A DNA stretch of 51,383 nt from a virus: positions 1-51,383 of the IMG/VR virus record IMGVR_UViG_3300030090_006995. The stretch is one strand, 5' to 3'. The translations under genes and the position numbers were made by a program. Under the pieces are notes generated by a model. The model was not told the DNA's origin. It ran no database searches and saw only the letters and a program-made list of their open reading frames with translations. The first letter of the stretch is position 1. Each line of letters begins with the position of its first letter. This document shows positions 3,287 to 51,383 of the stretch, piece by piece.

Positions 3287-4159
3287 GTGAATATCCAAGT
3301 ATGGACAGATACCGATTTACATGGTGCAGGTTCTGCATTATTGTTAAAGTGGTTATATAAAGATGCTAAAGCTTTTAGTATTCAAGATGTAACTGAATCT
3401 ACTTTAACAGGACGATTTAAAGGAGCGTTACATACATTAGATCATTATGATAGAGTTTACGTAGCTGATTTAGACCTAACTCCAGAACAAGTAAGTCTTA
3501 TTGATAGAGAAAATGTTGTAGTTATAGATAGTCACAAAAATCATGCTAAACATAAAGACTTATATAAAAAAGCTAAAGTAATAATAGACCCAGATGTATA
3601 TTCTAGTACAACTCTTATTTACGATAAGTTTAAATCTCATCTCACTCATCTATCGAAAGAGCAAATTGAGCTTATAGAATGTATTCAATCATATGATTGG
3701 TATAATGCTGAAAATAAAGATAGTTTAAAACTAAATGCCATCTACTACAATCTTAATTCTCCTAAAACTGAAAATTTTATAAATGCTTTTGAGAAAGGAT
3801 TAAGAGACTTTACTATACAAGAAAAAAATGCTATAAAGTTATACTTTAAAAAATTTAAAGAACAATTAACTGGTGAAACTTTTACAGGAAAGATAAAAGA
3901 GTATAGTATAGTTGCTACTTTTGCTAATTATGCCATAAACGAACTAGCGCATTATCTAATTAATAAACATAAAGCAGATATAAGCGTTATAGTAAACACA
4001 CAAGCTAAGACAGTATCATTTAGAAGATCTAAATCTTGTGATGCTGATGTAAGTATACTAGCTCAAAAACTTTGTAATGGGGGAGGGCACGCAGCAGCAG
4101 CCGGTGGTAAGTTAACGGAACAGTTTGCAACTCTAACTAAACAATTTACCCCATGTTAA
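3287..4159 (+). CDS. DHH/DHHA1-family phosphoesterase
   Basis: 290-aa protein, GTG start. The N-terminal TDTDLHGAGSALLL matches motif I of DHH phosphoesterases (NrnA, RecJ and related), VADLDLT gives a second acidic site, and VIDSHKNHAKH is the DHH-like motif with Ser in place of the first His. The C-terminus has CNGGGHAAAAGG, the DHHA1 GGGH substrate-binding motif. Likely an exonuclease or nano-RNase/oligonucleotide phosphodiesterase. It lies between the helicase and the gp59/gp32 cluster, so a role in nucleic-acid turnover during replication is plausible. Exact substrate unknown. Confidence 0.82.
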   Translation: MNIQVWTDTDLHGAGSALLLKWLYKDAKAFSIQDVTESTLTGRFKGALHTLDHYDRVYVADLDLTPEQVSLIDRENVVVIDSHKNHAKHKDLYKKAKVIIDPDVYSSTTLIYDKFKSHLTHLSKEQIELIECIQSYDWYNAENKDSLKLNAIYYNLNSPKTENFINAFEKGLRDFTIQEKNAIKLYFKKFKEQLTGETFTGKIKEYSIVATFANYAINELAHYLINKHKADISVIVNTQAKTVSFRRSKSCDADVSILAQKLCNGGGHAAAAGGKLTEQFATLTKQFTPC

Positions 4160-4449
4160 CAACTAACACACCAAAATCACCATCTTCATCTTTAATCAAA
4201 GATGAGACCGACCATTTACTAATGTGCTTTTGTACTTTTTGTTCTTTATTAAAAGGTAAAAAGCTATCTCTGCAAAATGTTTTTATTTTAGTCTTACAAG
4301 AAAAGAGGTTAAGAGCTATATTAAAGGAACTTTTAACCATTGAAACTAACTTTGATGTAGTTAAACTATTTATAGACTTTGAGCCTTCGATTACTAAATC
4401 GAAATATATTACAAAGTTCCTAAATTCGAATTCTAATATTAAACTATGA
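4153..4449 (+). CDS. Small protein at the gp33 position
   Basis: 98-aa protein overlapping the DHH gene by 7 nt and the gp59-like gene by an ATGA junction. In T4 the gene order 33-59-32 places the late-transcription co-activator gp33 (112 aa) here. Size and position fit, but I see no diagnostic gp33 sequence and no clear C-terminal clamp-binding hydrophobic tail. Treat gp33 as a positional suggestion only. The middle is hydrophobic and Leu-rich (residues about 25-60), probably helical. Confidence 0.6.
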   Translation: MLTTNTPKSPSSSLIKDETDHLLMCFCTFCSLLKGKKLSLQNVFILVLQEKRLRAILKELLTIETNFDVVKLFIDFEPSITKSKYITKFLNSNSNIKL

Positions 4450-5105
4450 TCAATGAAAAAGAAAAATCAATATACAATAGTTTTTTATACGCATCTCGAA
4501 AAGCAAAAAATAAGCCAGTTCGGTTAAGACAAAATTTTGATAACTTAGAGAGTAAAGACGAAGTAGCTCTCAAGAAACTTAACTTACTTTTATCAAAATA
4601 TACACATATAAACTATAGCGACTTCTTTATCGCTCCATATAAAGTTTACGGTTCGGATAACTATTTTGATTTGACGTTTTTTAACACACGTAGAGCAATA
4701 AAATGTTATTCTATGTACTGTAAAGATAAACAAGTACAAGATCCTGACAGTGAAGAAAGTATTAATACACTAAAAGAGTGTTTAAAGTTTATTTACAATT
4801 ACTGTAATACGGAAAAAATAACTCTCGGAAAGTATAAAACATGTACTTCCGGTACTACACCTGAAGTATTTAAACATCTAAAAAATCATCATATTAATTT
4901 TTATACACTTCATGCTCTTGATATTGAGAGTGTTGTGAGGAGCGGAGATATGGAAGTGTTTAACTGGCTTATACCTGATTTCGCAGACCTTTACTCTAAG
5001 ACAAGAGTAAAATTTATAAGTTCCAAAACTCTAAAAGATAAAGCAAGAAAAGGTCTGAAAATAATAGAACAAAAACTGTTGAAGTTTAGCACACCGGCAT
5101 TATAA
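4446..5105 (+). CDS. gp59: Helicase loader, T4 gp59-like
   Basis: 219-aa protein, nearly the length of T4 gp59 (217 aa). Directly upstream of gp32, as in T4. A central block with Tyr/Phe-rich helices, a YGSDNYFDL segment resembling the T4 pattern, and the segment VFKHLKNHHINFYTLHALD aligns by eye with the T4 gp59 C-domain segment around IFKLLQSNIISFETF. gp59 binds fork DNA and gp32 and loads gp41. ATGA overlap with the previous gene. The call rests on order, length and patchy similarity. Confidence 0.65.
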   Translation: MINEKEKSIYNSFLYASRKAKNKPVRLRQNFDNLESKDEVALKKLNLLLSKYTHINYSDFFIAPYKVYGSDNYFDLTFFNTRRAIKCYSMYCKDKQVQDPDSEESINTLKECLKFIYNYCNTEKITLGKYKTCTSGTTPEVFKHLKNHHINFYTLHALDIESVVRSGDMEVFNWLIPDFADLYSKTRVKFISSKTLKDKARKGLKIIEQKLLKFSTPAL

Positions 5106-5106
5106 T
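5101..5106 (+). promoter_or_regulatory. Sigma70-like -10 box TATAAT before gp32
   Basis: TATAAT begins inside the stop region of the gp59-like gene and ends 6 nt before the gp32 ATG, giving a possible separate, nearly leaderless gp32 transcript. No clear -35 element. Confidence 0.4.
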
Positions 5107-5112
5107 TATGGC

Positions 5113-5952
5113 ATGAGTACTTTTACTAGTTCAATGTTTCAATCAATTAAAGACGCACTAGCTACTTCTGATAATAAGGGGTCAGCTACATTCAATGAGA
5201 TTATGCCTACTAAAGTAGGTAATACTTATACTGTAAGGCTTTTGCCATTTGCAAAAGATCCGAGTAAGACATTCTTTCATTATTATAACCATGGATGGAA
5301 TTCTTACGCTACTGGTCAATACGTTCAGACTTTGAGTCCGCAAACGTTTGGTGAACGTGATCCTATTGCTGAAGAGCGTTTTCGTGTTCTTCGTACCGGT
5401 AGTGAAGAAGAGAAAGAAAAGATGAGCGCTGTACGACGCTTAGAGAAGTGGTTGGTAAATGTTTATGTTATCGACGACCCCTCTAATCCTGATAATAACG
5501 GAAAAGTAAAAATTCTTCGTTATGGTAAGCAGCTTCAAAAAATTATTACTGAAGCTATTGAAGGAGAAGATGCTGAAGAGTTTGGAGCTCGTATCTTTGA
5601 CTTAGGATCTGAAGGTGTTAACTTTAAGATTAAAGTAGAGCAGCAAGGTGACTTTCCTACTTATGTATCTTCTAGATTTACTTCTGCAGGTAAGGTAGAG
5701 CTGTCTGAAGATCAACAAAAAGATATTTACGATGGAGTATTTGATCTTACGGAAGTATTTACTCTTAAGTCTTATGACGATCTTAAAGAAATGTTTAATG
5801 AGCATTATTACTGTAAGACCGGAGATGATACTCCTGAAACTCCAGTAACGTCAGCTCCGGAGCCTGCCGCTGCTCCTGCTGAACCTGAGCCTGTAGTTGC
5901 AGGTAATGATTCAGTTGAAGAGGATATTGACGACCTTTTGAAAGATCTCTAA
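5113..5952 (+). CDS. gp32: Single-stranded DNA-binding protein, T4 gp32 family
   Basis: 279-aa protein. The OB-fold core contains NTYTVRLLPFAKDPSKTFFHYYNHGW (split here by function: basic/aromatic ssDNA cleft) and EKWLVNVYVIDDP...NGKVKILRYGKQL, matching the T4 gp32 core. A Pro/Ala-rich linker leads to the acidic tail EEDIDDLLKDL, the protein-interaction tail that in T4 contacts gp59, gp61 and gp43. The T4 zinc-ligand region is replaced by SPQTFGERDP with no cysteines, so the zinc site appears absent. Located between the gp59-like and clamp genes. Confidence 0.92.
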   Translation: MSTFTSSMFQSIKDALATSDNKGSATFNEIMPTKVGNTYTVRLLPFAKDPSKTFFHYYNHGWNSYATGQYVQTLSPQTFGERDPIAEERFRVLRTGSEEEKEKMSAVRRLEKWLVNVYVIDDPSNPDNNGKVKILRYGKQLQKIITEAIEGEDAEEFGARIFDLGSEGVNFKIKVEQQGDFPTYVSSRFTSAGKVELSEDQQKDIYDGVFDLTEVFTLKSYDDLKEMFNEHYYCKTGDDTPETPVTSAPEPAAAPAEPEPVVAGNDSVEEDIDDLLKDL

Positions 5953-5953
5953 G

Positions 5954-6433
5954 ATGCAAGAACCACCAATGACACCAGAGGCTAAAGCAGCCTTGATGCA
6001 ATTTGTTGGCCAGACATATGGTCAGATGAATAAGCAAGATCAAATGATAGTAGGTCAATCAGGTAACTTACAACCTAAATCTGATCAACTAAGACATACA
6101 TTTGAATCAGTAGCAAAAATACCTACTGTACAAATGCCTCAACAAGGAGCTCCTCCGCAACAAGGAGCTCCACCTCAACCAGAAGCTGCCCCGACACCGG
6201 TCGCTCCGGTAACCCCGGAACAAGCTGCACAAGAGTTGAGAGAGGTACAGCAAGCACCAGTACTACAAGAATTACCACCACAATCTAATGACAATCAATT
6301 AGATTTTGATTTTACCGAACCCTCGAAGATCGATAAGATGGTTGATCTATTGGAAAAGCAAAATTTGATTCTAAAAGAAATTAGTTTAAAATTAGATAAT
6401 GGAAAGAAAGTTAAAATTAACAAACAAAGGTGA
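5954..6433 (+). CDS. Pro/Gln-rich linker protein of unknown function
   Basis: 159-aa protein starting 1 nt after the gp32 stop. Residues about 55-115 are low-complexity Pro/Gln/Ala, including a perfect QQGAPP repeat encoded by an 18-bp tandem near 6140-6175. A short hydrophobic-acidic motif NQLDFDF at about residue 116 resembles clamp-binding peptides. A C-terminal amphipathic helix (DKMVDLLEKQNLILKEIS) looks like a coiled coil. The next gene, the clamp, starts 35 nt before its stop. I do not recognise the family; an intrinsically disordered replisome or transcription accessory factor is possible. Confidence 0.65.
   Translation: MQEPPMTPEAKAALMQFVGQTYGQMNKQDQMIVGQSGNLQPKSDQLRHTFESVAKIPTVQMPQQGAPPQQGAPPQPEAAPTPVAPVTPEQAAQELREVQQAPVLQELPPQSNDNQLDFDFTEPSKIDKMVDLLEKQNLILKEISLKLDNGKKVKINKQR
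6140..6175 (+). repeat. 18-bp tandem duplication encoding QQGAPP twice
   Basis: Two adjacent 18-bp units differ at two third-codon positions. They encode QQGAPP-QQGAPP in the linker of the protein at 5954-6433. Confidence 0.7.
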
Positions 6434-11177: not shown

Positions 11178-11411
11178 ATGAAAAACTATACCTTTAAACT
11201 AAAAGACGGAACTACTAAGACAATGGAATTTGATGAACTAGTTCGATGGGCGTGTCTAATTGAAGCTCTCGAAGTAGTAGGTAATCAAGAAGATGTAGAC
11301 GTTGATAGTGATAAGTGGATAAAGCCTTTAGCGTTTCAAAAGTATATCGACGAAAGATATCACTCAATGAGACATGATCTTAAAGTAGAAGCCTCAATGG
11401 GTAATCTTTAG
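11178..11411 (+). CDS. Small hypothetical protein
   Basis: 77 aa: beta-hairpin-like N-terminus (YTFKLKDGTTKTMEFDEL), a helix, then an acidic turn and a basic C-terminal helix. Ends 18 bp inside the convergent glycosyltransferase-like gene. No family recognised. Confidence 0.6.
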   Translation: MKNYTFKLKDGTTKTMEFDELVRWACLIEALEVVGNQEDVDVDSDKWIKPLAFQKYIDERYHSMRHDLKVEASMGNL

Positions 11412-12284
11412 TATATCTGAATATAACGCTACGTTACCCCAGTAATGATTTTCTTGCTCGTATTCGTTAGAATATATGTTGTAGTGTGAAGTTAAATGAG
11501 CCCCATGATAAACATGCACAGATGGATTCTTACTTTTCCAAGATTTTCTTTTTAAATTTTGATTTTCAAGTAAAAAATATTCATGTCTTAATCCCCTTTG
11601 CAAATTAGATTCAAAATTATCTATAGCATCTGAAAAATGCATAGTCATTTCATGAAGCGGTTGATCACTATTATTATTTTTTTGCCATCCCTTTTTACTT
11701 AATTGAATATAGTTCATATTAGTCATAATTGAACCTTTATCAAAATCAGGATAATCAAAATAACCTATAGGATATAACACATCATGCTCTAAAAACGAAA
11801 CATATTTAAAATCATGTATTTGTTTTGCAGCATACAGGAGTTGCAAGATTTGAAGATTTATATTTATTAAACCTCCATGATTAAAAAATGACTTATAACT
11901 TTTATAAGGATTATTATCTATTTCTTTCCAAACACTAGTTAAAATAGTAACCTTTTTATTTGATATTTTAGCTAATTCATCTAACGATTTTCTTATTATT
12001 AAAGGCTTAGTACTACAATTATTTGTATACCAAATACCTAAACGATCTGAAGGAGAATAATTTATTTTAACATAATTATTTTCATTTACTTCTAATTCCT
12101 CATTTTTACCATTGCAAATATATTTTATCTTTAAAGTCTTTTTTTTATAAGGCTCAGGATCACCAAATACTCCATTACTTGCTATAAAATAAAGTGATCC
12201 TTCACCAAATATTAAATTCTCAACTATAGATGTAACATTTTTTGTGTTATAAAAGGCACTCTTAATAACTAAAGACTTATTCAT
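11394..12284 (-). CDS. DUF3395-like domain fused to a glycosyltransferase-like domain
   Basis: 296 aa. Residues about 1-70 carry a pattern I recognise as DUF3395-like: VIKSAFYNTKNVTSIV, then FGDPEPYKKKTLKIKY, corresponding to the GDP-x-P-x-x-K-K-T-L-x-V-x-Y core of that family. Residues about 100-290 look like a GT-A domain: VTILTSVW, YVSFLEHDVLYP (acidic EHD motif at the DxD position), and a His-rich end (SVHVYHGAHLTSHYN). ATGA overlap with the upstream GT gene, so it is co-expressed with that gene and probably with the giant adhesin. The acceptor is unknown. Confidence 0.65.
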   Translation of the reverse strand: MNKSLVIKSAFYNTKNVTSIVENLIFGEGSLYFIASNGVFGDPEPYKKKTLKIKYICNGKNEELEVNENNYVKINYSPSDRLGIWYTNNCSTKPLIIRKSLDELAKISNKKVTILTSVWKEIDNNPYKSYKSFFNHGGLININLQILQLLYAAKQIHDFKYVSFLEHDVLYPIGYFDYPDFDKGSIMTNMNYIQLSKKGWQKNNNSDQPLHEMTMHFSDAIDNFESNLQRGLRHEYFLLENQNLKRKSWKSKNPSVHVYHGAHLTSHYNIYSNEYEQENHYWGNVALYSDILKITH

Positions 12285-13111
12285 TTTATATTTAGCTCAT
12301 TTTTTACCTCTTGAATATATGACATGGGTATAACGTCTTTGAATTGCTCTACTACAATATTAGTATCTAATTCTACTTCTTGATGACCTATCATATAGTT
12401 ACGAAACCTATCCTTAAGGTCATTATGATAAGGTACACCTCCTGGTCTATCAAACCGATGATTCCATCTTAAAAACGGTAAGCACATTACCTTCTTTCCT
12501 ATCTTCCTATACTTTTCATGAATATAACCTTCCTCACCTCCAAAACCTCTAAACTTTAGATTAAATCCTAACCAACTATCTTTTCTACAAGTGAATAATC
12601 CAAGTCCCATAGCTTCGATCTCAAAAGGTTTTGAGTCCATTGATTCTCCACGTTTATCACATCCCCATTGTCCCCACATATGTGATCCCCATACACTTAA
12701 ATCAAAATGAGTACTATAACCTTCTAAATCATCATACAATAATGGACCATGGAGTAAATTACCTTCATCTTTACCTTTATCGTAGTAATCTAATAACCTC
12801 TTTAACGCGCCATTAGCTAGTAGAACGTGACAGTCCATTACTAAAACATACTCAGTGTTAGCTAATCCAAATATTTTATCTCTTAACGCAGTTGATGCAA
12901 AATTATCATACTCAATATATGTTATTGGTTCTTTAATCCAGTTCTTATAGCCATGCAGTGCTTTACCTTGTGGTGATTCTGGATTATTGTTAATAATAAC
13001 GAACTCTAGTCTATCTATAATATCTCTATTATGCAGTCTTAATGACTGTAGAGTAAAGTAAGCGCCGTCATAATCATCGTATACACAAATACCAATTGTG
13101 AGTTTAGTCAT
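12281..13111 (-). CDS. Glycosyltransferase family 2/27-like, polypeptide GalNAc-transferase-like motifs
   Basis: 276 aa. GT-A start LTIGICVYDDYDGAYFTLQSL; donor/metal motif MDCHV (D-x-H, as in polypeptide GalNAc-transferases, DSH) at about residue 93. The later GFGGEEGYIHEKY followed by MCLPFLRWNHRFDRPGG parallels the WGGEN...PCSRVGHVFR region of GalNAc-transferases. It starts 12 nt after the stop of the giant Thr/Ser-rich protein gene on the same strand. A role in glycosylating that protein is an attractive inference; glycosylation of another virion protein or a host glycan is possible. Confidence 0.8.
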   Translation of the reverse strand: MTKLTIGICVYDDYDGAYFTLQSLRLHNRDIIDRLEFVIINNNPESPQGKALHGYKNWIKEPITYIEYDNFASTALRDKIFGLANTEYVLVMDCHVLLANGALKRLLDYYDKGKDEGNLLHGPLLYDDLEGYSTHFDLSVWGSHMWGQWGCDKRGESMDSKPFEIEAMGLGLFTCRKDSWLGFNLKFRGFGGEEGYIHEKYRKIGKKVMCLPFLRWNHRFDRPGGVPYHNDLKDRFRNYMIGHQEVELDTNIVVEQFKDVIPMSYIQEVKNELNIK

Positions 13112-13123
13112 TAATAATAATTA

Positions 13124-16100
13124 CTACCACTTCAAAACATTGCAACGAGGACCTCCTTTAGAATCTGGAGGGCAGATTGTTGTAGGTAATCTTGGAGTTG
13201 TACCAGTAGTAACTGTAGTAGTAGTTACTCTTTCAGTTGTAGTTGTACGGACTGTTGGTGTAGTAAGTTCATCATCTGGAAAATCTGGAGGATCTTCTGC
13301 ATCACCAGGAACTATTATTACTTCTGGCTCTTGTGGTTGTGGAACCGGTCCACCAGGTCCAGGTCCAGGAGGTTTGTTAGTTTCTGGGCAAGGGCAACAT
13401 TCACACATTTCCCAACCTAACCCTTTATCACCCGGTTCTAAAGCACCAACACCTAACTTAGCAGGTTTGTCTTCATTTTGTGGGTTGATAGCCGGGTCAT
13501 TAACATGAGCTAAAACATCTATAGCAGGGTTTAACATTGGATTTTTGTTAACAAAATCTTTGTCTATAACCTTAAAACAAATAGGTCTACATGCTTCATT
13601 ACAATCTTCATTAAAGTTTTTAGCAACATCCTTTAAATCTATTTCTGGATTAAAGGCTTGACCGTCTTCATTTTGAAATGATTTTAGTTTATCACCATCA
13701 GTAATATCTTCTCTTGCAAGCTCGTTACCTTCGGCAGGACCAGTCCAGTTATCATCATTTTTAATTAATCTTTCACGCTCTAGAGCTTCATTTATCTCAT
13801 TTAAAACTTCATCTACAGGTCCCTGTTCTCCAAAGAGGGCGAGCTCTTCTCTTAAAGCTTTTTCAAACCACTCAGGTCTTTCTATATCTTCCGGAGCTTT
13901 TCCGGGATTAGCTTCTTGAATTTGCTGCTCTCTAAGTAATATTTCACGCACTCTGTCTACTTCTTGTGGACCTATTATTTCTCCACTAGTGGATCCACTC
14001 TCACCATGGAGAAGGTTTCCTCCTAATACACGTTTTACAATTCTCTCTCTTAAAGCATTAACATTACCTTCAGCTATGTTAAAATCGATTGCTGCTTCAT
14101 TTACGTTTACTTCAGCATCTAGTACCTGGTGTTGTGCGTCTTCTACTGCTTGTATAAATCCTCGTCGGAGATCTGCTGGTAAATTACCAAAGCCACCTAC
14201 ATCACTAATTCCCTGATCTAACCGGTCATTAGCTTCTTGTAATTTTTTTCTAGCTGCTATTAATTCATCACTAGCTAGTTCTCCTTTATCCCAAGCCTCT
14301 TGTATTACTTCATCAACAAAACCATCCAATACGAAAGGAGGCGGCTCACAGCAATAAGTCACTACCATATCATCTTTGACATCTATTCTAACTCCATCAT
14401 CAGCTGCAGGGTCTTGTAATGCCATGCCTAAGAATGTAAAGATATTTTGTCTTCTATTATCCCAGAACCAACATATATCACAATTAGTAGGAGGACAACA
14501 TGGGCAACATTCACACTCTTCCCAGCCATCACCTCGTCGGAAGCCTTTTTCTTCGTTAACTATTTTACCCCCAGCTGTATCTTCAGATGGTCTAACTTCT
14601 TTATGAGCATTTACCCAATCAGCATCATGGATAAAATAACATCTTCTAGCATCACGATCCTTAAACTCTGCCTGCCATTGTCTAATTCTAGCTTCTAATG
14701 CACCTCTTTGCTCTCGAGGTATATCTAGCATTTCTTGACTTGCCTTTAGTCTATCATTTTCTAATCTAGCATAAGCAACTTCTCTCTCATCTTCAGTTCC
14801 TTCAAATTCAGGTCCTTCCCAAAATACACCACCTTCTTCAGCTACACCATCATATGGACGTAAATAATTGTTTATTGCATCTTCATAAAACCATTGACCT
14901 TCCCTTTCTGCTGGAGGTGAACATTCCGGTACGCAACACGGTGTAGTTGTAGAAGTAGTAGTACTTGTTGAAGTACTAGTACTGGTACTAGTTGATGTAC
15001 TAGTTGAGGTAGTAGATGTAGTAGTTTTATCCGGAGGAGTTGTAGTAGTGCTTGTAGTTGTACTAGTCGTACTAGTAGTAGATGTAGTAGTTTTATCTGG
15101 AGGACAGCAAGGACATTCTTCCCATCCAGGAGTAATAGATCCATCATCCTGTACTGGTGGGTTACAAAGAGCTGACATGTCATCTACATCAGAACTTGAT
15201 CGTTCTATAGCTTTTATATCTACTAACTTATAACACTTACCATTATAACTTACAACAATATGCTCTCCTTTTTCTAAGGCGTCTTCAACAAATCCTACTG
15301 GATCATTATTACCATCAAGCCAACCCATATCTTGAAATATGTTATTGTTAGCAGATTTATCACCACTTTCTTCAGCTGCTTCGCGATCCTCTTTGCTTAT
15401 TTCAGCCATACGTTCGTAATATTTGTCAATATCACCGTCTTCTAAATACTGTTGATATGCCTCATTAACTCTCTCATCTGTTCTATCTAAATTACCCGGA
15501 AATCCCGGGCTAGGTCGATTAAGTCCAGGAGGTACAACATCTTCAGCAGAAACATCCGGTTTTATAGGATCTAAACCACCGCCAGGAACTTGATCAGGAT
15601 TATTTTTTGATTGATCCCCGTCGATGCCAAATTCCTCCCTAAGATCTTCTTTTACTTGATTAATATCTTCTAAAAGACTTTCCGCATCTTCAGGAGTTTT
15701 TCCTTCTTCTATTTGTTCTTTTAGTCTTAGGAGAACTAATAAATCATCACTATTCAGTCTTTGTGCATCTTGTAATTTAAAAAGCTTATCCCTTTGAGGC
15801 CCGGGCTCCATATCACCCTGTGCTCTAAGCATACTATCGCTATTTTCTGCTAATAAATCATTATCTCTTGCCTCTTGAAGTATAGCCTGGGGTACCCAGC
15901 CACCAGCACTCGCCTCTGCAATAGCTTGATTAACTCTATCTAGTAACGAACTAGGTGAATTATTATTAGCTGGGACTCGTGTTAATCTAACTGCAGTAGG
16001 CTCTAGACCACCACCTGGCATGCCAGCAGCTCCTTCTTGCCCTGCATTACCTCTTGCCCCTGCATTACCGGGTATTTGTAATAAGAAAGAATTTGGTCCA

Positions 16101-18865
16101 GTTTGTTGCAAGTTAGCATTTTTTACTGGTTGAATAGTATTAGCAGTATTAGCCCATACCCCGGGGTTATTATCTAACATGTTATATGATGAGTAACCAC
16201 CATAACCACCCGGGCTCGGTGTATTACTTGGAGCAGGCGTATTACTTGGAGCAGGTGTATTTCCTGATGCAGGGGCTGGTGTAGTTGTTTCAGCATACAC
16301 ATCTTCAATATTTTCTACTGGCTTGTGCGTGTAACCAAGGTTTTGAAATTTTAAATGCTGTTCATATGTACCTGCCCAATAAGCATACCCATTACTATCA
16401 TACATATAATGAGGTACAAAAGATTGAGATGTAGGATATGGATTATTACTATTATTAGTAGGACTTGGAGTTGAATCTTGTGATAAAGCTGAAATTACAT
16501 CGACAAATGGTGATGGTCTCATCGTCTGAGACCCAGGTGTTGTACTAGTTGTAGTAGTTGTACCGGTAGTTATTGGTCTAGGTGTTGTAGTAGTAGTAGT
16601 AGTTGTTATAGGGCTTGGAGAAGTTGTAGAAGTGGTTGTAGCTCTAGGATCAGGTGTAGTAGTTGTAACTGGTGGCGCTAGCGGGAAAGGAGTAGTAGTT
16701 ACTTTAGGGTCAGGTGTTGTAGTAGTGGTTGTAGTCCTTGGTGGTAGAGTTGGCCTAGGCCCTCCAAATAGACCTGGAGTTGTAGTAGTTGTTGTTGTTG
16801 GCTTTATTGTAGTTGTAGTTCTTCTAGATGGAGGGATTAAAGTAGTAGCTGGAGGCGCTGGAGGAAACGCTGTAGTACCAGCTCTAACTGTTGTAGTGGT
16901 AGGTTTAATAGTAGTAGTTGTAACAGGTTTTGGAGTGGTAGTGGTAGTGGTAGTTGGCTTTATTGTAGTTGTAGTTGTCCCTAAACCATCTAAAATATCA
17001 GGATCTTCTTCTTCACTATCTTCTTCATCTGTAGTTTCAGATAATAATTCTGTAAACTCAGCAGCGTTAACGGTATACCCTGTTGAGAAACCTAAAACTT
17101 CATTATCAACTCTATCTATAAGAGAATTAAGTGTATTTATACTTGTAGTACCTCCAGTAAATTGAGCTTGAACTAAAGCAGTAGAGGTTATACCAGCTAA
17201 AATAGCTTCGTTGTTAGCAACGAAAAAGGTTGGACTGCTTGAGTCACCTAATACAATCTCACCGCCCCATCCATTATCAGCTAACCCATTAAGGTTATCA
17301 CTGTAATATGCTAAACTATTATCAAAAGGAGATTCTGAAGGATCATTTAATCTTGCAAAAGCGCTTCTAAATAATAATCCTTCTTCTTGTTGATTGGTAC
17401 CCCATAACAACCCATTAAAATCTACCTTATACCTACCCTCTACTTCTTCTCCTGTAGTTATAATTTGACCATCTCTATTTTTAGTAGTACCGGGACGGGC
17501 TCTAGTTAAATCTGAGTTAGGAATCTGACTCAAAATGTCTGTTGGCATTACCCTCAATATTTCAACACTACTAGGTAAGTCTTCATCTAAAACACTTATA
17601 TTATAATCTCCTTCTCTTGGAAATTGACCAGATACGTTACCTAACATAGTACGCTCTACTGAATTATTATCTTTGTCTATAAAACCTATTTTATTTCCAG
17701 GAGTTAAATTATGAAATCCTACATGTCTTGATATTAATACATGTCGTGGTGTAATAGCTACACCATGATGCCTTAACCACCGTTGTGTAGGTAGATCAGA
17801 TCCAGGCTCACGCTTTAAATATGGACTTATACCTGTTATACCTTTTAAATCTTTACCCCAAAACTCTTCATTTCTTGTAAATCTTCCTATATTTCGGTTA
17901 TTATAATTTGTAAATAAATTTTTTGTATTAGGAGCCGGCTCCAGCCCACTAACTAGTGCTTGAATTTCTTGAGTACTTTTATCTGAAAGAGCAGCTATAG
18001 GATTATAACTTGAAGTACTTCCTACATTAATAGGACCGGGTGGTATTACAGGCTCTGGTGTATAAACATCTAAACGCTGTACAATAATATTCCATGGAGC
18101 AGCTGAATCTATAGCTACACTTTCTAAATCATCACCTACATAATATGTATTTAAAGATCCATTAGCAGATACTATATATCTTACAGGGTCTGAATTAGTA
18201 TCCCAATCTTCTACATCCACGTCCCAAGTACCTGATGGTATAGTAACTATTCCAGTATCAGGATTTATGCTTACACTAGCCATAGAAGGCGTTATTGGGC
18301 CTCCAATACCAGTTTCACCTTCTGTTCCTAATGGCCCTACAACACCCGAGGTACCTGTTATAGTACTAGGAGGGGAGTTTCTATTCCAATACCATTCTCC
18401 TCGAGGTGAGCAACACGGAGTAGTTGTAGAGGTAGTAGTACTTGTTGAAGTACTAGTACTGGTACTAGTTGATGTACTAGTTGAGGTCGAAGTACTAGTT
18501 GAAGTACTAGTACTGGTACTGGTAGTTGTAGTAACATCTGGACATTCAACTATAATCTCTTTACAGCAACCACAGCTTTCAATCAAAGCGTAAAGTATTT
18601 TGGTTCCATCTGGTTGTATTACCGCGGCTCCTGTTAATTGTAATCCATTAGGAGGATCAAATGGATTCTTATGATTTCCATGTGGATCATTTTCATGCCA
18701 TACAAACTCTTTTCGGGGACTAGTTTGATCATGCATATATATCCTATAAAGAGGACCATTACCACTTATATTGTAAATGATAATTAAATCCTTTTCACAA
18801 AATGCTTCATACTCAATTTCGAAACCTGCTCCGCAAGATGATGTAACTGTTCCAGAATCGCTCAT
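13124..18865 (-). CDS. Giant mucin-like, Cys-rich virion adhesin with a trypsin-like protease domain
   Basis: 1913 aa, in the tail-fibre block. Order: N-domain (1-110) ending in a CGCC cluster; Thr/Ser linker (about 111-151); a CC-x-P...WYW motif; a trypsin-like domain (about 365-590) with candidate triad His381 (ISRHVG), Asp420 (GDYNISV) and Ser542 (GDSSSP); a long Thr/Pro linker (626-782); a PAPSNT stretch; a collagen-like Gly repeat (931-952); helical parts; then a third Thr/Ser linker (1254-1309) and Cys-rich modules ending GWEECPCC (about 1245), GWEECECC (1445) and GWEMCECC (1814); and a last Thr-rich tail. Probably a surface-exposed adhesin or fibre. Starts 1 nt after the gene upstream; two glycosyltransferase genes follow. 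Whether the protease is active is not known. Confidence 0.8.
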   Translation of the reverse strand: MSDSGTVTSSCGAGFEIEYEAFCEKDLIIIYNISGNGPLYRIYMHDQTSPRKEFVWHENDPHGNHKNPFDPPNGLQLTGAAVIQPDGTKILYALIESCGCCKEIIVECPDVTTTTSTSTSTSTSTSTSTSTSTSTSTSTSTSTTTSTTTPCCSPRGEWYWNRNSPPSTITGTSGVVGPLGTEGETGIGGPITPSMASVSINPDTGIVTIPSGTWDVDVEDWDTNSDPVRYIVSANGSLNTYYVGDDLESVAIDSAAPWNIIVQRLDVYTPEPVIPPGPINVGSTSSYNPIAALSDKSTQEIQALVSGLEPAPNTKNLFTNYNNRNIGRFTRNEEFWGKDLKGITGISPYLKREPGSDLPTQRWLRHHGVAITPRHVLISRHVGFHNLTPGNKIGFIDKDNNSVERTMLGNVSGQFPREGDYNISVLDEDLPSSVEILRVMPTDILSQIPNSDLTRARPGTTKNRDGQIITTGEEVEGRYKVDFNGLLWGTNQQEEGLLFRSAFARLNDPSESPFDNSLAYYSDNLNGLADNGWGGEIVLGDSSSPTFFVANNEAILAGITSTALVQAQFTGGTTSINTLNSLIDRVDNEVLGFSTGYTVNAAEFTELLSETTDEEDSEEEDPDILDGLGTTTTTIKPTTTTTTTPKPVTTTTIKPTTTTVRAGTTAFPPAPPATTLIPPSRRTTTTIKPTTTTTTTPGLFGGPRPTLPPRTTTTTTTPDPKVTTTPFPLAPPVTTTTPDPRATTTSTTSPSPITTTTTTTTPRPITTGTTTTTSTTPGSQTMRPSPFVDVISALSQDSTPSPTNNSNNPYPTSQSFVPHYMYDSNGYAYWAGTYEQHLKFQNLGYTHKPVENIEDVYAETTTPAPASGNTPAPSNTPAPSNTPSPGGYGGYSSYNMLDNNPGVWANTANTIQPVKNANLQQTGPNSFLLQIPGNAGARGNAGQEGAAGMPGGGLEPTAVRLTRVPANNNSPSSLLDRVNQAIAEASAGGWVPQAILQEARDNDLLAENSDSMLRAQGDMEPGPQRDKLFKLQDAQRLNSDDLLVLLRLKEQIEEGKTPEDAESLLEDINQVKEDLREEFGIDGDQSKNNPDQVPGGGLDPIKPDVSAEDVVPPGLNRPSPGFPGNLDRTDERVNEAYQQYLEDGDIDKYYERMAEISKEDREAAEESGDKSANNNIFQDMGWLDGNNDPVGFVEDALEKGEHIVVSYNGKCYKLVDIKAIERSSSDVDDMSALCNPPVQDDGSITPGWEECPCCPPDKTTTSTTSTTSTTTSTTTTPPDKTTTSTTSTSTSTSTSTSTSTSTTTSTTTPCCVPECSPPAEREGQWFYEDAINNYLRPYDGVAEEGGVFWEGPEFEGTEDEREVAYARLENDRLKASQEMLDIPREQRGALEARIRQWQAEFKDRDARRCYFIHDADWVNAHKEVRPSEDTAGGKIVNEEKGFRRGDGWEECECCPCCPPTNCDICWFWDNRRQNIFTFLGMALQDPAADDGVRIDVKDDMVVTYCCEPPPFVLDGFVDEVIQEAWDKGELASDELIAARKKLQEANDRLDQGISDVGGFGNLPADLRRGFIQAVEDAQHQVLDAEVNVNEAAIDFNIAEGNVNALRERIVKRVLGGNLLHGESGSTSGEIIGPQEVDRVREILLREQQIQEANPGKAPEDIERPEWFEKALREELALFGEQGPVDEVLNEINEALERERLIKNDDNWTGPAEGNELAREDITDGDKLKSFQNEDGQAFNPEIDLKDVAKNFNEDCNEACRPICFKVIDKDFVNKNPMLNPAIDVLAHVNDPAINPQNEDKPAKLGVGALEPGDKGLGWEMCECCPCPETNKPPGPGPGGPVPQPQEPEVIIVPGDAEDPPDFPDDELTTPTVRTTTTERVTTTTVTTGTTPRLPTTICPPDSKGGPRCNVLKW
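13160..13262 (-). repeat. Thr-rich low-complexity tract 4
   Basis: Encodes the Thr/Val/Arg-rich C-terminal tail of the giant protein (about residues 1868-1902). Confidence 0.7.
14934..15010 (-). repeat. 77-bp direct repeat, copy 1 (inside Thr/Ser tract 3)
   Basis: Matches 18411-18487 with two differences by eye. Both copies encode the junction of a Thr/Ser linker and a CC motif in the same frame; their offset is 3477 bp, a multiple of three. Confidence 0.8.
14940..15104 (-). repeat. Thr/Ser-rich low-complexity tract 3
   Basis: Encodes about residues 1254-1309 of the giant protein, TTST-type repeats flanked by PDK and by CC motifs. Simple-sequence DNA based on gta/gtt/act triplets. Confidence 0.8.
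16520..16990 (-). repeat. Thr/Pro-rich low-complexity tract 2
   Basis: Encodes about residues 626-782 of the giant protein, Thr runs broken by Pro, Lys, Ile and Arg (TTTTIKPTTTT type), directly after the protease domain. Candidate O-glycosylation or extended stalk region. The antisense strand shows a spurious Val-rich open frame. Confidence 0.8.
18411..18487 (-). repeat. 77-bp direct repeat, copy 2 (inside Thr/Ser tract 1)
   Basis: Second copy of the repeat at 14934-15010. Recombination between the copies would remove 1159 codons in frame, including the protease domain and collagen-like part. Confidence 0.8.
18415..18535 (-). repeat. Thr/Ser-rich low-complexity tract 1
   Basis: Encodes about residues 111-151 of the giant protein (alternating Ser-Thr). 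Contains an internal near-repeat at a 54-bp offset. Confidence 0.8.
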
Positions 18866-18866
18866 C

Positions 18867-19766
18867 TTACACGCTTCTAGCAGTTATATTACTAACCGTA
18901 GAAACCGCAGTCTTGGGATTTACCGGGATCTCAGCACTAGTAATTGTTTCAGTTAATACAGTCGACCCTTCATATCCTTCAATATGAAAGTTCTTCAAAT
19001 AAAATTCTTTTGCACTTAAATTAGCGTTTGTAGAAGAAATAGGTGTAGTAAAAGCAAAACCACAAAACAAATCATCAAGATTACTATAATTTTGTAATCT
19101 AAATCCTAAATTAATAGTAGTAAGAGGAGTAAATTCTGTTGTATTAGACTCATGAAAATCTATTAACAGCTTTTGACCTAAGTTTATATATCTAAATCGT
19201 AGAGTTCTAAATGTATCTGTTGATAAAGTACTAAAAGCAGTAGATATAGATGAAAGACTGTGGTTGTAAATTACATTATGATTTAAATCACGTAATATAA
19301 GTGATTGTTTATTAACGTGTGTTAGTCCAACACCGGTGCGTCCGTCTCTACCAGATAAAGCGTAAAAGCCTGAAGAATCAAAAGCTATTTTAAGTAATAA
19401 ACCACTCAATTCATTAACATCAGTGGTTAAGTCAATACCACCTTCTGTAATAATGTTAACATTGCTTTCAGATGTAATTACACCACCAGATAGAATTAAT
19501 GCAGGATCTTGATCACCTATGTATTGACCAGGTAGAGATGAGATTGGGGATGATAAAGTAGATAAAAAAGTAGAAAAACCTAACTGGTAATTATCTGGAA
19601 TATTAGCTCCGGATAATATATTATCTTCATAGTTACTAGTAAGTCTTGGTAATTTGTATTGGAATGACCATACAATATCATAATTAGAATTATAACGCTT
19701 TTTAGTTTCTAAAAAAGTGTAATATCTTGAAGAATTAGGTAAAACAATGTCACTAGGAAAGCCCAT
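18867..19766 (-). CDS. Tail-fibre or baseplate-associated structural protein, lectin-like
   Basis: 299 aa, beta-rich with Ser/Thr/Asn strands throughout. LILRDLNHNVIYNHSL, FRTLRFRYINLGQKLLIDFHES and LGFRLQNYSNLDDLFCGFAF suggest a concanavalin/LamG-like sandwich. No catalytic motif. Lies 1 nt upstream of the giant adhesin gene and probably shares its transcript. The start is placed at the ATG although the perfect TATAAATA is only 1 nt away; a weaker ATTAAATA box lies 7 nt away. Confidence 0.65.
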   Translation of the reverse strand: MGFPSDIVLPNSSRYYTFLETKKRYNSNYDIVWSFQYKLPRLTSNYEDNILSGANIPDNYQLGFSTFLSTLSSPISSLPGQYIGDQDPALILSGGVITSESNVNIITEGGIDLTTDVNELSGLLLKIAFDSSGFYALSGRDGRTGVGLTHVNKQSLILRDLNHNVIYNHSLSSISTAFSTLSTDTFRTLRFRYINLGQKLLIDFHESNTTEFTPLTTINLGFRLQNYSNLDDLFCGFAFTTPISSTNANLSAKEFYLKNFHIEGYEGSTVLTETITSAEIPVNPKTAVSTVSNITARSV

Positions 19767-49082: not shown

Positions 49083-49090
49083 TATTTATT
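49083..49090 (-). promoter_or_regulatory. Late-type box AATAAATA
   Basis: 5 nt upstream of the gp19 ATG at 49077 and overlapping the gp18 stop. Confidence 0.5.
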
Positions 49091-51383
49091 AACTAACTGC
49101 TGAACCCTCGTATAAAAGACCAGGTCCGTCAACTATTTCTTGGAAATTAGCATCTGTTCTAGTCGCGTAGAAGGTAATTAAGATAAACTCTGCAGTTCTC
49201 ACTGGCTTCAGGTAAATGTCAACCCTAAGCTTATTTTCATCAATAACTTGCGGAGTATTGTTTCTTTCATCGCATACAATCAAGTAGTCATAAACTCCTT
49301 GGTTTTGTTTAGCCCTCTCAAAAATCGGTGTTAAGACGTTAACTAGTCTCGTTCTAGTGAACTCTGTATTAGGTTCAAATACGAAGAACTGAGCTGCTTT
49401 CTTAGTAGGTCTTTCTAATGCTAAGAACAACCTTCTAACATTAATTCTATCGAATGCACTTGGTTTCTTCTGTAAGGTCTTCTGTCCAAATATAACATTA
49501 CCCTGTGATGGGAAGAATGCTACTGGGTTAATAGCTGATTTATACAACTCATCTCTTTGCTTCTGATTCGGATTAATTGCAATATCAGTTGCAGTTGTAA
49601 GTAAACCTCTGTTAAATCCTGCTGGCGCAAACCACGGGAACGTTGCTGCGTCACTCTTAGCCATAGTAGCTGCAGCATATCCTGAGAACGGAACCCATAC
49701 AAGCTCACCTAATCCCTGGTCATATGTTTGTGCCCAGTTACCATATACTGTAGCATAAGAAGTGTTCTGTGAAGAGAACTGATGCTTCATTGGCCAGAAT
49801 ACATCCGTTGAGAAGTTTCTAGACTTATCATCTAATATTCTTGTTTCACCATTTCCAATAGCTACGATCTGTCTAAATGTATCAGCAATAAATATTGCAT
49901 CTCCTCTTGTTCCTCCAAGATATGGTGGCTTAACAAACGTTTCAAACTTATCAAAGATAGTATTATAATTACTTCTAAGAGTTAAGCCGCCTCCTGCTAA
50001 AGCGTTAGAAGTTCTTAGTGCTTTAACTGCTGTTGCAGTTGTACCACCGTAGTAGAATTCATCATAATATAATGGATCGCCTTCAGTAATTCCTCTAGAC
50101 TTAGCCATCGCCCAGATGGTACCTAAACCAGCTTCAGGAATAACATCAATATCGTAAATTTCATCGTTTTTAATGCCGTCTAATGCTCTATCAAGCTTAC
50201 CTGGTATATCACCTAGATCTTTATTAGTTACTTTAGTATTGGTATACGCACCAAGTGGGAATAATTTACCAGCATAGCCTAGTTCTTTTTCTAGTCTAGT
50301 AAACTGTGAACTAGTAGCAAATCCTATAGTGCCAAAATCGTCCCCAGTCGGATCTGCTGTTAGCAGCGCATCGCTTATTACTCTTATTCTTAACTTAGGA
50401 TTATTATCAGTATTTAAATTATCATCACCAGTATTACGCTGTGTAATATTTTGGTTAACTAATACTTTTACGTTACGTGATTTAGCATCTTGATTGCCAA
50501 CAAAGTAATTAAGTTGTCTTCCCCCCTTTTGATCATCAATCTTACGGAAAGCATTAATAGATCCAACTAATTTATCTTCTAAATTATAACCAAGCTGGAA
50601 TGCTTGAGCAGCATTTTGCGTTCTTCTTAATTTAAACACACCCATGCTTAATACATCATCACTATCTCTACCTTCTAAATCATAATCTACTAAGTTTTCC
50701 ATTACCTGTGAAATACTACCATCAGGACCTGTAGTAGCATTAGCTGAAAGAGGAAAATCTAAAGTATTATCCCTTAATATAGTATATGAATTCTGTTTAT
50801 AAGCAGAAGCGGTAATAGTTGCCGTGCTTCTTAATCCAACAAAATTATTAGCTGGGTTAATATCAGCATTATCAATTAGACCTATGTAATAGCCTTCGTA
50901 GTTTTGATTAATTGTACTTGTAGACTTGTTTAATATAATAAGAGGTGAATTACCCATTCTAGTATTTCTTTGAGCAGCAGTACCATCTACAACAAAATCC
51001 TTAGCTAATCCGGAAGAATCAGACCAATCAAATAATGTACCATCAACAGCGCTAAGATATTCTGATTCAGTTAATTCTACATGTGTAGGTTCACCTATAA
51101 ACACCGTACCACCAGATGCAATACTACTATAAGTTTGATTTAAAGCTCTTGTTGCCATTCCATTTGTACCGCTGGCTCCCTGACCAGATAAAGAAATAGC
51201 TGATCCAGAATAAACTAAAGCAGAATATTGTGAACCAAATCCATCACCATTACCAGCTCCATATGGCAATCTACTCGTGTAGAGATTTGCTGGTGAGTTT
51301 AAAACTTCTTTTGCAGTATGGTAAAAGTATCTTTCTGCAGAGTTAGTAGGTGGTCCATAAATTTGATCTAAATCTTGCTGAGT
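49089..51383 (-). CDS. gp18: Tail sheath protein, T4 gp18 (5' end beyond window)
   Basis: At least 764 aa; T4 gp18 is 659. An internal TTG at 51269 is not the start: the frame stays open to the right edge with 38 further codons (QQDLDQIYGPPTNS, YFYHTAKEVLNSPANLYTSR) that look like sheath sequence. The C-terminal domain is clear: LVWVPFSGYAAATMA, SAINPVAFFPSQGNVIFGQKT, RINVRRLFLALERPT and the end VRTAEFILITFYATRTDANFQEI (as separate strands), the sheath handshake domain. The contractile outer sheath. Confidence 0.92.
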   Translation of the reverse strand, partial: TQQDLDQIYGPPTNSAERYFYHTAKEVLNSPANLYTSRLPYGAGNGDGFGSQYSALVYSGSAISLSGQGASGTNGMATRALNQTYSSIASGGTVFIGEPTHVELTESEYLSAVDGTLFDWSDSSGLAKDFVVDGTAAQRNTRMGNSPLIILNKSTSTINQNYEGYYIGLIDNADINPANNFVGLRSTATITASAYKQNSYTILRDNTLDFPLSANATTGPDGSISQVMENLVDYDLEGRDSDDVLSMGVFKLRRTQNAAQAFQLGYNLEDKLVGSINAFRKIDDQKGGRQLNYFVGNQDAKSRNVKVLVNQNITQRNTGDDNLNTDNNPKLRIRVISDALLTADPTGDDFGTIGFATSSQFTRLEKELGYAGKLFPLGAYTNTKVTNKDLGDIPGKLDRALDGIKNDEIYDIDVIPEAGLGTIWAMAKSRGITEGDPLYYDEFYYGGTTATAVKALRTSNALAGGGLTLRSNYNTIFDKFETFVKPPYLGGTRGDAIFIADTFRQIVAIGNGETRILDDKSRNFSTDVFWPMKHQFSSQNTSYATVYGNWAQTYDQGLGELVWVPFSGYAAATMAKSDAATFPWFAPAGFNRGLLTTATDIAINPNQKQRDELYKSAINPVAFFPSQGNVIFGQKTLQKKPSAFDRINVRRLFLALERPTKKAAQFFVFEPNTEFTRTRLVNVLTPIFERAKQNQGVYDYLIVCDERNNTPQVIDENKLRVDIYLKPVRTAEFILITFYATRTDANFQEIVDGPGLLYEGSAVS

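Follow-up and report, generated by a model that had tools for sequence, protein, structure and literature searches.

Polypeptide GalNAc-transferases (ppGalNAc-Ts), which constitute glycosyltransferase family GT27, modify mucin-like tracts rich in Thr, Ser and Pro. In the serine-rich repeat glycoprotein systems, an adhesin with Ser/Thr repeats is accompanied by dedicated neighbouring glycosyltransferases (GTs) active in the cytoplasm, the first of which adopt the GT-B fold. Among phages, virion proteins of mycobacteriophages are glycosylated, with glycans attached to capsid and tail tube subunits at their C-termini, according to passages in two papers (PMC12619734 and PMC12894461, citing Freeman et al. 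2023). Here we analysed a window of 51,383 bases, the entire IMG/VR virus record IMGVR_UViG_3300030090_006995, in which the gene of a giant Thr/Ser-rich protein is followed on the minus strand by two GT genes, referred to as GT1 and GT2. A sequence-only reading of the window had proposed that the phage O-glycosylates its own adhesin with a GalNAc-transferase-like enzyme; this claim is partly supported overall, its core being sustained by the ranking of folds and by the conserved pairing of the genes, and in the best reading of our results the phage likely O-glycosylates its own Thr-rich protein.

As in the mycobacteriophage system, glycans would be carried by phage virion proteins, which is here a proposal drawn from genes. 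As far as those passages describe the mycobacteriophage system, the present one differs in its giant or small Thr-rich proteins, in the C-terminal tag that they share and in its ppGalNAc-T-like enzyme. Unlike the GT-B first enzymes of the serine-rich repeat systems, GT1 is a GT-A enzyme with a GT27-like fold. Virion glycosylation itself is already known from mycobacteriophages, and the new parts are the enzyme class, the tag and a bacterial parallel. The shared tag, bacterial homologs associated with Thr-rich proteins bearing twin-arginine translocation (Tat) signals, and fusions of GT1 with GT2 all go beyond the sequence-only reading. In searches of the open-licence literature, no account of phage Thr-rich proteins with partner GTs came up.

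GT1 and the giant Thr-rich protein

The features on which the comparison depends are the following, in window coordinates.

13124..18865, minus strand: giant Thr/Ser-rich, Cys-rich protein of 1913 amino acids (aa), from an open reading frame (ORF) call; candidate O-glycosylated virion or adhesin protein
18389..18556, minus strand: Thr/Ser tract 1 of the giant, residues 104-159, (TS)n, by composition
16499..16993, minus strand: Thr/Pro tract 2, residues 625-789, two adjacent segments, by composition
14906..15121, minus strand: Thr/Ser tract 3, residues 1249-1320, beside CPCC/PCC Cys motifs, by composition
13160..13267, minus strand: Thr tract 4, residues 1867-1902, by composition
12281..13111, minus strand: GT1, 276 aa, GT-A glycosyltransferase with a ppGalNAc-T-like fold, PF00535 (ORF, Pfam, model)
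12827..12835, minus strand: DxH putative metal-binding motif of GT1, D93-C-H95 (MDCHV); D and H invariant in 110 homologs
12530..12541, minus strand: GGEE motif of GT1, residues 191-194, compare WGGEN of GT27; E193 and E194 invariant in 110 homologs
12452..12469, minus strand: RWNHRF motif of GT1 (within FLRWNHRF), residues 215-220; W216, H218 and F220 invariant

GT1 matched the Pfam family Glycos_transf_2 (PF00535) with 30.3 bits against a cut-off of 23.3, as did all 45 aligned homologs at E<=0.1. An AlphaFold2 model built from these 45 homologs reached a mean pLDDT of 94.8, and when it was compared with the PDB using Foldseek the best 50 matches were all ppGalNAc-Ts (E 5e-14 to 3e-10, TMq 0.62-0.76), with lipid- or polysaccharide-acting enzymes absent from those 50. 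GT1 shares with these enzymes (GalNAc-T1, T2, T4 and T12) the GT-A fold (TMq up to 0.76), the DxH motif, GGE and a downstream H-x-F. The motifs MDCHV, GGEE and FLRWNHRF, already picked out by the sequence-only reading, are conserved across homologs: in a set of 110, comprising 45 phage sequences and 65 others (62 encoded on genome contigs of bacteria or archaea, plus three GT1-GT2 fusions), the putative catalytic residues D93, H95, E193, E194, H198, W216 and H218 are invariant and the GG of GGEE nearly so, with F instead of W preceding GGE. By analogy with GT27, H218 is presumed to be the third metal ligand.

GT1 differs from GT27 in lacking significant sequence similarity, a signal anchor and a ricin-type C-terminal lectin domain, Pfam finding only PF00535 in its 276 aa. 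Its structural matches among viral proteins include entries named 'Glycosyltransferase, GlcNAc'; these GT60-type polypeptide alpha-GlcNAc transferases are among the better viral matches, at 11-17% identity and a lower TM-score, and the GT60-type Pfam family was unmatched. GT1 therefore folds like a ppGalNAc-T and, to judge from the model, may work like one, while by sequence it is no GT27 member.

The composition of the giant agrees with what had been described, namely four Thr/Ser/Pro-rich regions, whose tracts total 143 Thr and 39 Ser, and a Cys-rich character (35 Cys, many of them near the tracts). The collagen-like stretch does exist but is short, with only six Gly-X-Y triplets (residues 933-950). 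The trypsin-like domain is less secure: the region contains H380/D420/S542-like motifs in trypsin-like order, and the label is unverified because a PDB sequence search returned no match to it; no Pfam or PHROG family matched the giant. Proteins with similar C-termini lie directly upstream of GT1 in the relatives L002 to L006 and L026.

The C-terminal tag and the phage neighbourhoods of GT1

In the window, GT1 starts 12 nucleotides after the giant's stop codon on the same strand, and GT1 and GT2 overlap by ATGA, as had been noted. An IMG/VR search found 260 relatives of GT1, of which the best 80 were kept and grouped with the window at 90% identity into 47 clusters. A Thr-rich gene ending within 60 nucleotides of GT1 lies directly upstream in 36 of them, its product bearing the C-terminal tag in 35 clusters and lacking it in one; among other same-strand neighbours in these loci, 24 of 1101 are Ser/Thr-rich. 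The pair is thus conserved in diverse phages, with analogous pairs in bacteria and one Mu-like prophage (see below). GT1 was not found in PLSDB plasmids.

13124..13174, minus strand: C-terminal tag of the giant, CPPDSKGGPRCNVLKW-stop, member of the motif C-x(3-9)-C-x-x-L-x-[FYW]-COOH found in the partners

The second Cys of the tag usually stands within CN or CK. When 5305 ORFs were scanned for the strict form C[NK]xLx[FYW], with no filter for Thr content, 71 matches were obtained; every distinct match listed lies in a GT1 locus, possesses the first Cys and is Ser/Thr-rich, the Ser/Thr share of the best 30-residue window ranging from 0.40 to 1.0. The 47 dereplicated tagged proteins span 65-2431 aa (some being cut by the contig end), and N-terminal BLAST divides the ones above 150 aa into 18 separate groups. 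The loose form of the tag occurs on none of 3840 ORFs without Thr-rich character, and a tagged ORF occurs in none of 80 loci around GT2 relatives, although 54 of these hold a Thr/Ser-rich ORF. This restriction to Thr-rich ORFs of GT1 loci indicates that the tag is specific to the proteins accompanying GT1. When the records of the 11 exceptional loci, many of which are fragments, were searched for the tag as a DNA pattern, eight gave no match and L025, L078 and L080 one match each.

In our reading the tag probably designates the protein that GT1 is to modify. At position 58 of the enzyme, Trp occurs in 27 of 31 tag-paired GTs and in none of nine unpaired ones, which is suggestive of a contact between Trp58 and the tag, in a pattern confounded by phylogeny and with Trp also present in 8 of 65 further homologs.

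Second enzymes, gene order and bacterial relatives

11394..12284, minus strand: GT2, 296 aa, second GT-A glycosyltransferase with an N-terminal beta domain; proposed extension enzyme (ORF, relatives, model, fusions)
18867..19766, minus strand: 299-aa protein upstream of the giant, its position conserved (ORF, neighbourhoods)

A search with a two-sequence alignment yielded 111 relatives of GT2, a single-sequence search having given none. In structure searches its model (pLDDT 88) showed a GT-A fold with low TM-scores, the best E-values belonging to chondroitin synthases, the bacterial GT6 enzyme BoGT6a and SpsA, and GT2 is accordingly assigned to the GT-A fold and not to an exact family. The DUF3395 domain formerly attributed to it is a match below threshold (E=0.0017, 18.6 bits against a cut-off of 27.1), which leaves the label unverified. 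GT1 and GT2 form one polypeptide in five contigs (L329, L339 and L341-L343), where the fusions immediately follow Thr-rich ORFs, whereas in other relatives GT1 is followed by GT6, Caps_synth/GT32, polysialyltransferase-like, PIG-L or methyltransferase genes. This variety, together with the fusions, is the pattern to be expected if the initiating enzyme is conserved and the enzymes that extend the glycan are interchangeable. The fusion partners in L329, L341, L342 and L343 (around 5000-5215) share another conserved C-terminus, RIKTSVGTKSLI or EINTSRGVKCLG, which by its sequence is perhaps another clade-specific tag. A separate family of about 310-320 aa (RYICAQPATxYYAWQVEVML...HDCDIVF), probably a GT, is flanked by a Thr/Ser-rich protein on one side and a GT2 relative on the other in L271, L276, L286, L287, L295, L307, L326 and L335, and is possibly an alternative first enzyme.

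Family matches in the window include a tail sheath, baseplate wedge, clamp loader, single-strand DNA binding protein, DnaB helicase and primase, and the combination of tail sheath, baseplate wedge and replication-type matches identifies a T4-like phage. Its best sheath match, in cyanophages, has 42% identity over 34% of the query, placing the phage far from cultured ones. The sheath (49089-51383) has at least 764 aa, known sheaths being matched by its C-terminal ~270 residues only. On the minus strand, tail-collar and baseplate genes are followed by the genes of the 299-aa protein, the giant, GT1 and GT2. Family searches returned no match for the 299-aa protein, whose homologs directly precede GT1 in relatives without a Thr-rich gene. 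In L022-L025, L027 and L028, loci without a Thr-rich gene, GT1 directly follows an 81-aa gene homologous to window positions 11178-11411.

Screening GTDB genomes with GT1 provided 65 relatives, mostly bacterial, in which the homologous domain has mostly 41-52% identity with invariant motifs. A Thr-rich ORF is present in 26 of 39 bacterial homolog loci of at least 12 kb and in 2 of 20 control regions, which surround other GT2 genes in 20 of the same genomes (Fisher p=3e-5). These loci resemble those of the phages in having a homologous GT domain beside a Thr-rich protein, and differ in that the GT domain is usually part of a longer protein (the fused domains in the homologs scanned being HprK-related, PqqD, GT25, sulfotransferase and DUF6065) and in that the partner bears a Tat-like signal and lacks the C-terminal tag. 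Many bacterial partners consist of a twin-arginine motif, a segment LPxxWxKPxVxxxxxPAHA and a Thr-rich tail. The WxKPxV..PAHA segment of these partners, and the C-terminal tag of the phage ones, are, by sequence conservation, candidate recognition segments of the kind that modification systems for ribosomally synthesized and post-translationally modified peptides (RiPPs) keep separate from the modified core. In the control region L260 a protein has the Tat-like LPxxWxKPxVxxxxxPAHA signal and no Thr-rich tail.

A PqqD domain accompanies the GT1 homolog of the bacterial locus L160, and domain scans found neither this domain nor another RiPP recognition element (RRE) in phage GT1. In L215 a Thr-rich protein with an N-terminal PqqD-like domain (5432-5995) lies directly upstream of the GT1 homolog. 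Across L154-L212 (e.g. L162, L174, L176, L198 and, in Rhodococcus erythropolis, L202), one to three short Tat-signal proteins occur near the GT1 homolog, mostly of the form RR...LPxxWxKPxVxxxxxPAHA plus Thr-rich tail, and some of the homologs are HprK-related or PqqD fusions; by their sequences these loci are possibly an undescribed bacterial Thr-rich glycoprotein system. Nothing useful on HprK/PqqD loci was found in the open-licence literature. A lead from threoglucins, supposed glycosylated Thr RiPPs, was rejected, these being radical-SAM ether peptides.

The locus L216 (positions 1-2083 and 3756-4730) is a Mu-like prophage in a Halorhodospira metagenome-assembled genome, in which a prohead-protease/major-capsid fusion with a Thr-rich tail ends four nucleotides before the GT1 homolog; such a tail closes a second ORF of this gene run too. 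Here the GT is linked to a structural gene, that of a capsid protein, and elsewhere the position of the Thr-rich partner points to its virion nature.

Alternative explanations and biological meaning

Several observations weigh against O-glycosylation of the phage's own Thr-rich protein. Neither phmmer nor a profile search of the PDB with GT1 gave a GT27 match (hhalign against a GalNAc-T2 segment returned a probability of 0.1), so that the likeness of fold fixes neither donor nor acceptor. In 11 of the 47 clusters GT1 has no adjacent upstream Thr-rich gene and may therefore have other substrates; the clusters are mutually related, and their counts are not independent. GT1 was not found in the INPHARED cultured phages, and the giant is inferred to be a virion protein from its position beside baseplate and tail-fibre genes.

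Glycosylation of the Thr-rich protein by GT1 would also be compatible with a different role of the tag, as a virion-docking or assembly module, perhaps stabilised by disulphides, instead of a recognition site for the GT. We regard this as a credible possibility, if on the doubtful side: N-terminally unrelated proteins carry the tag at similar genome positions, as for a shared attachment site, the bacterial partners of the homologous GT do without it, and the C-terminus conserved at the GT1-GT2 fusion loci is a different one. Its confinement to GT1 loci, when Thr/Ser-rich ORFs of GT2-family loci never carry it, argues for recognition, as does the tracking of tag pairing by Trp58, with the phylogenetic reservation made above.

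That the true acceptor of GT1 and GT2 is something else (a glycan of the host envelope, lipopolysaccharide or DNA), the tracts being spacers and the linkage accidental, appears unlikely. PF00535 does include many glycan-acting GTs, profile searches of GT1 gave weak matches to polysaccharide and teichoic-acid enzymes, and, besides the 11 clusters without a Thr-rich neighbour, GT1 lies within a run of other GT-like genes in L076/L077; against this stand the exclusively ppGalNAc-T ranking in the PDB and the recurrence of the pairing, with different partner proteins, in phages, bacteria and a prophage. Neutral low-complexity expansion of the tracts by DNA slippage is very improbable, for although they contain simple TS and T repeats overlapped by tandem-repeat arrays (TRF), the DNA-level repeats are imperfect and the Thr codons of the giant mixed (ACT 80, ACA 47, ACC 14, ACG 2), both of which argue against plain microsatellite slippage, and Thr-rich partners beside GT1 recur in unrelated proteins.

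In our preferred reading, O-glycosylation by the phage of its own Thr-rich protein, the genes of the giant, GT1 and GT2 would form a virion-protein O-glycosylation cassette, whose activity, acceptor sites and product we infer as follows. GT1 would transfer a sugar, probably an N-acetylhexosamine (HexNAc), not necessarily GalNAc, and probably with retention, from a nucleotide-sugar onto Thr/Ser of the giant's tracts in the host cytoplasm, the tag probably marking the substrate. GT2 would extend the glycan, a step that GT6-like, GT32-like and other enzymes would take over in relatives, and the glycosylated, bottle-brush-like giant would be built into the virion, probably in the tail or baseplate region. 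Some phages thus probably decorate their own virions with mucin-like sugars; mucus binding is a possible purpose, not favoured over stability, receptor contact or shielding.

A broader interpretation, which we advance tentatively and with slightly less than even confidence, is that phages and bacteria possess a widespread counterpart of mucin-type O-glycosylation, in which an enzyme of GalNAc-transferase fold densely glycosylates any protein provided with a transplantable motif, the C-terminal C-x(3-9)-C-x-x-L-x-[FYW]-COOH in phages and the Tat-linked N-terminal motif in bacteria, phages thereby turning tail or capsid proteins into glycan brushes. If true, a large group of phages, uncultured and for the most part aquatic, would carry a dedicated mucin-type O-glycosylation cassette, alongside which GT1 homologs on bacterial chromosomes adjoin Tat-exported Thr-rich proteins, and the tag would offer a simple handle by which a protein of choice could be densely O-glycosylated in bacterial cells. 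The abundance of Thr-rich low-complexity proteins in environmental phages would also gain a testable explanation, and the reading bears on the question whether protein glycosylation of the GalNAc-transferase-like type has relatives among prokaryotes.

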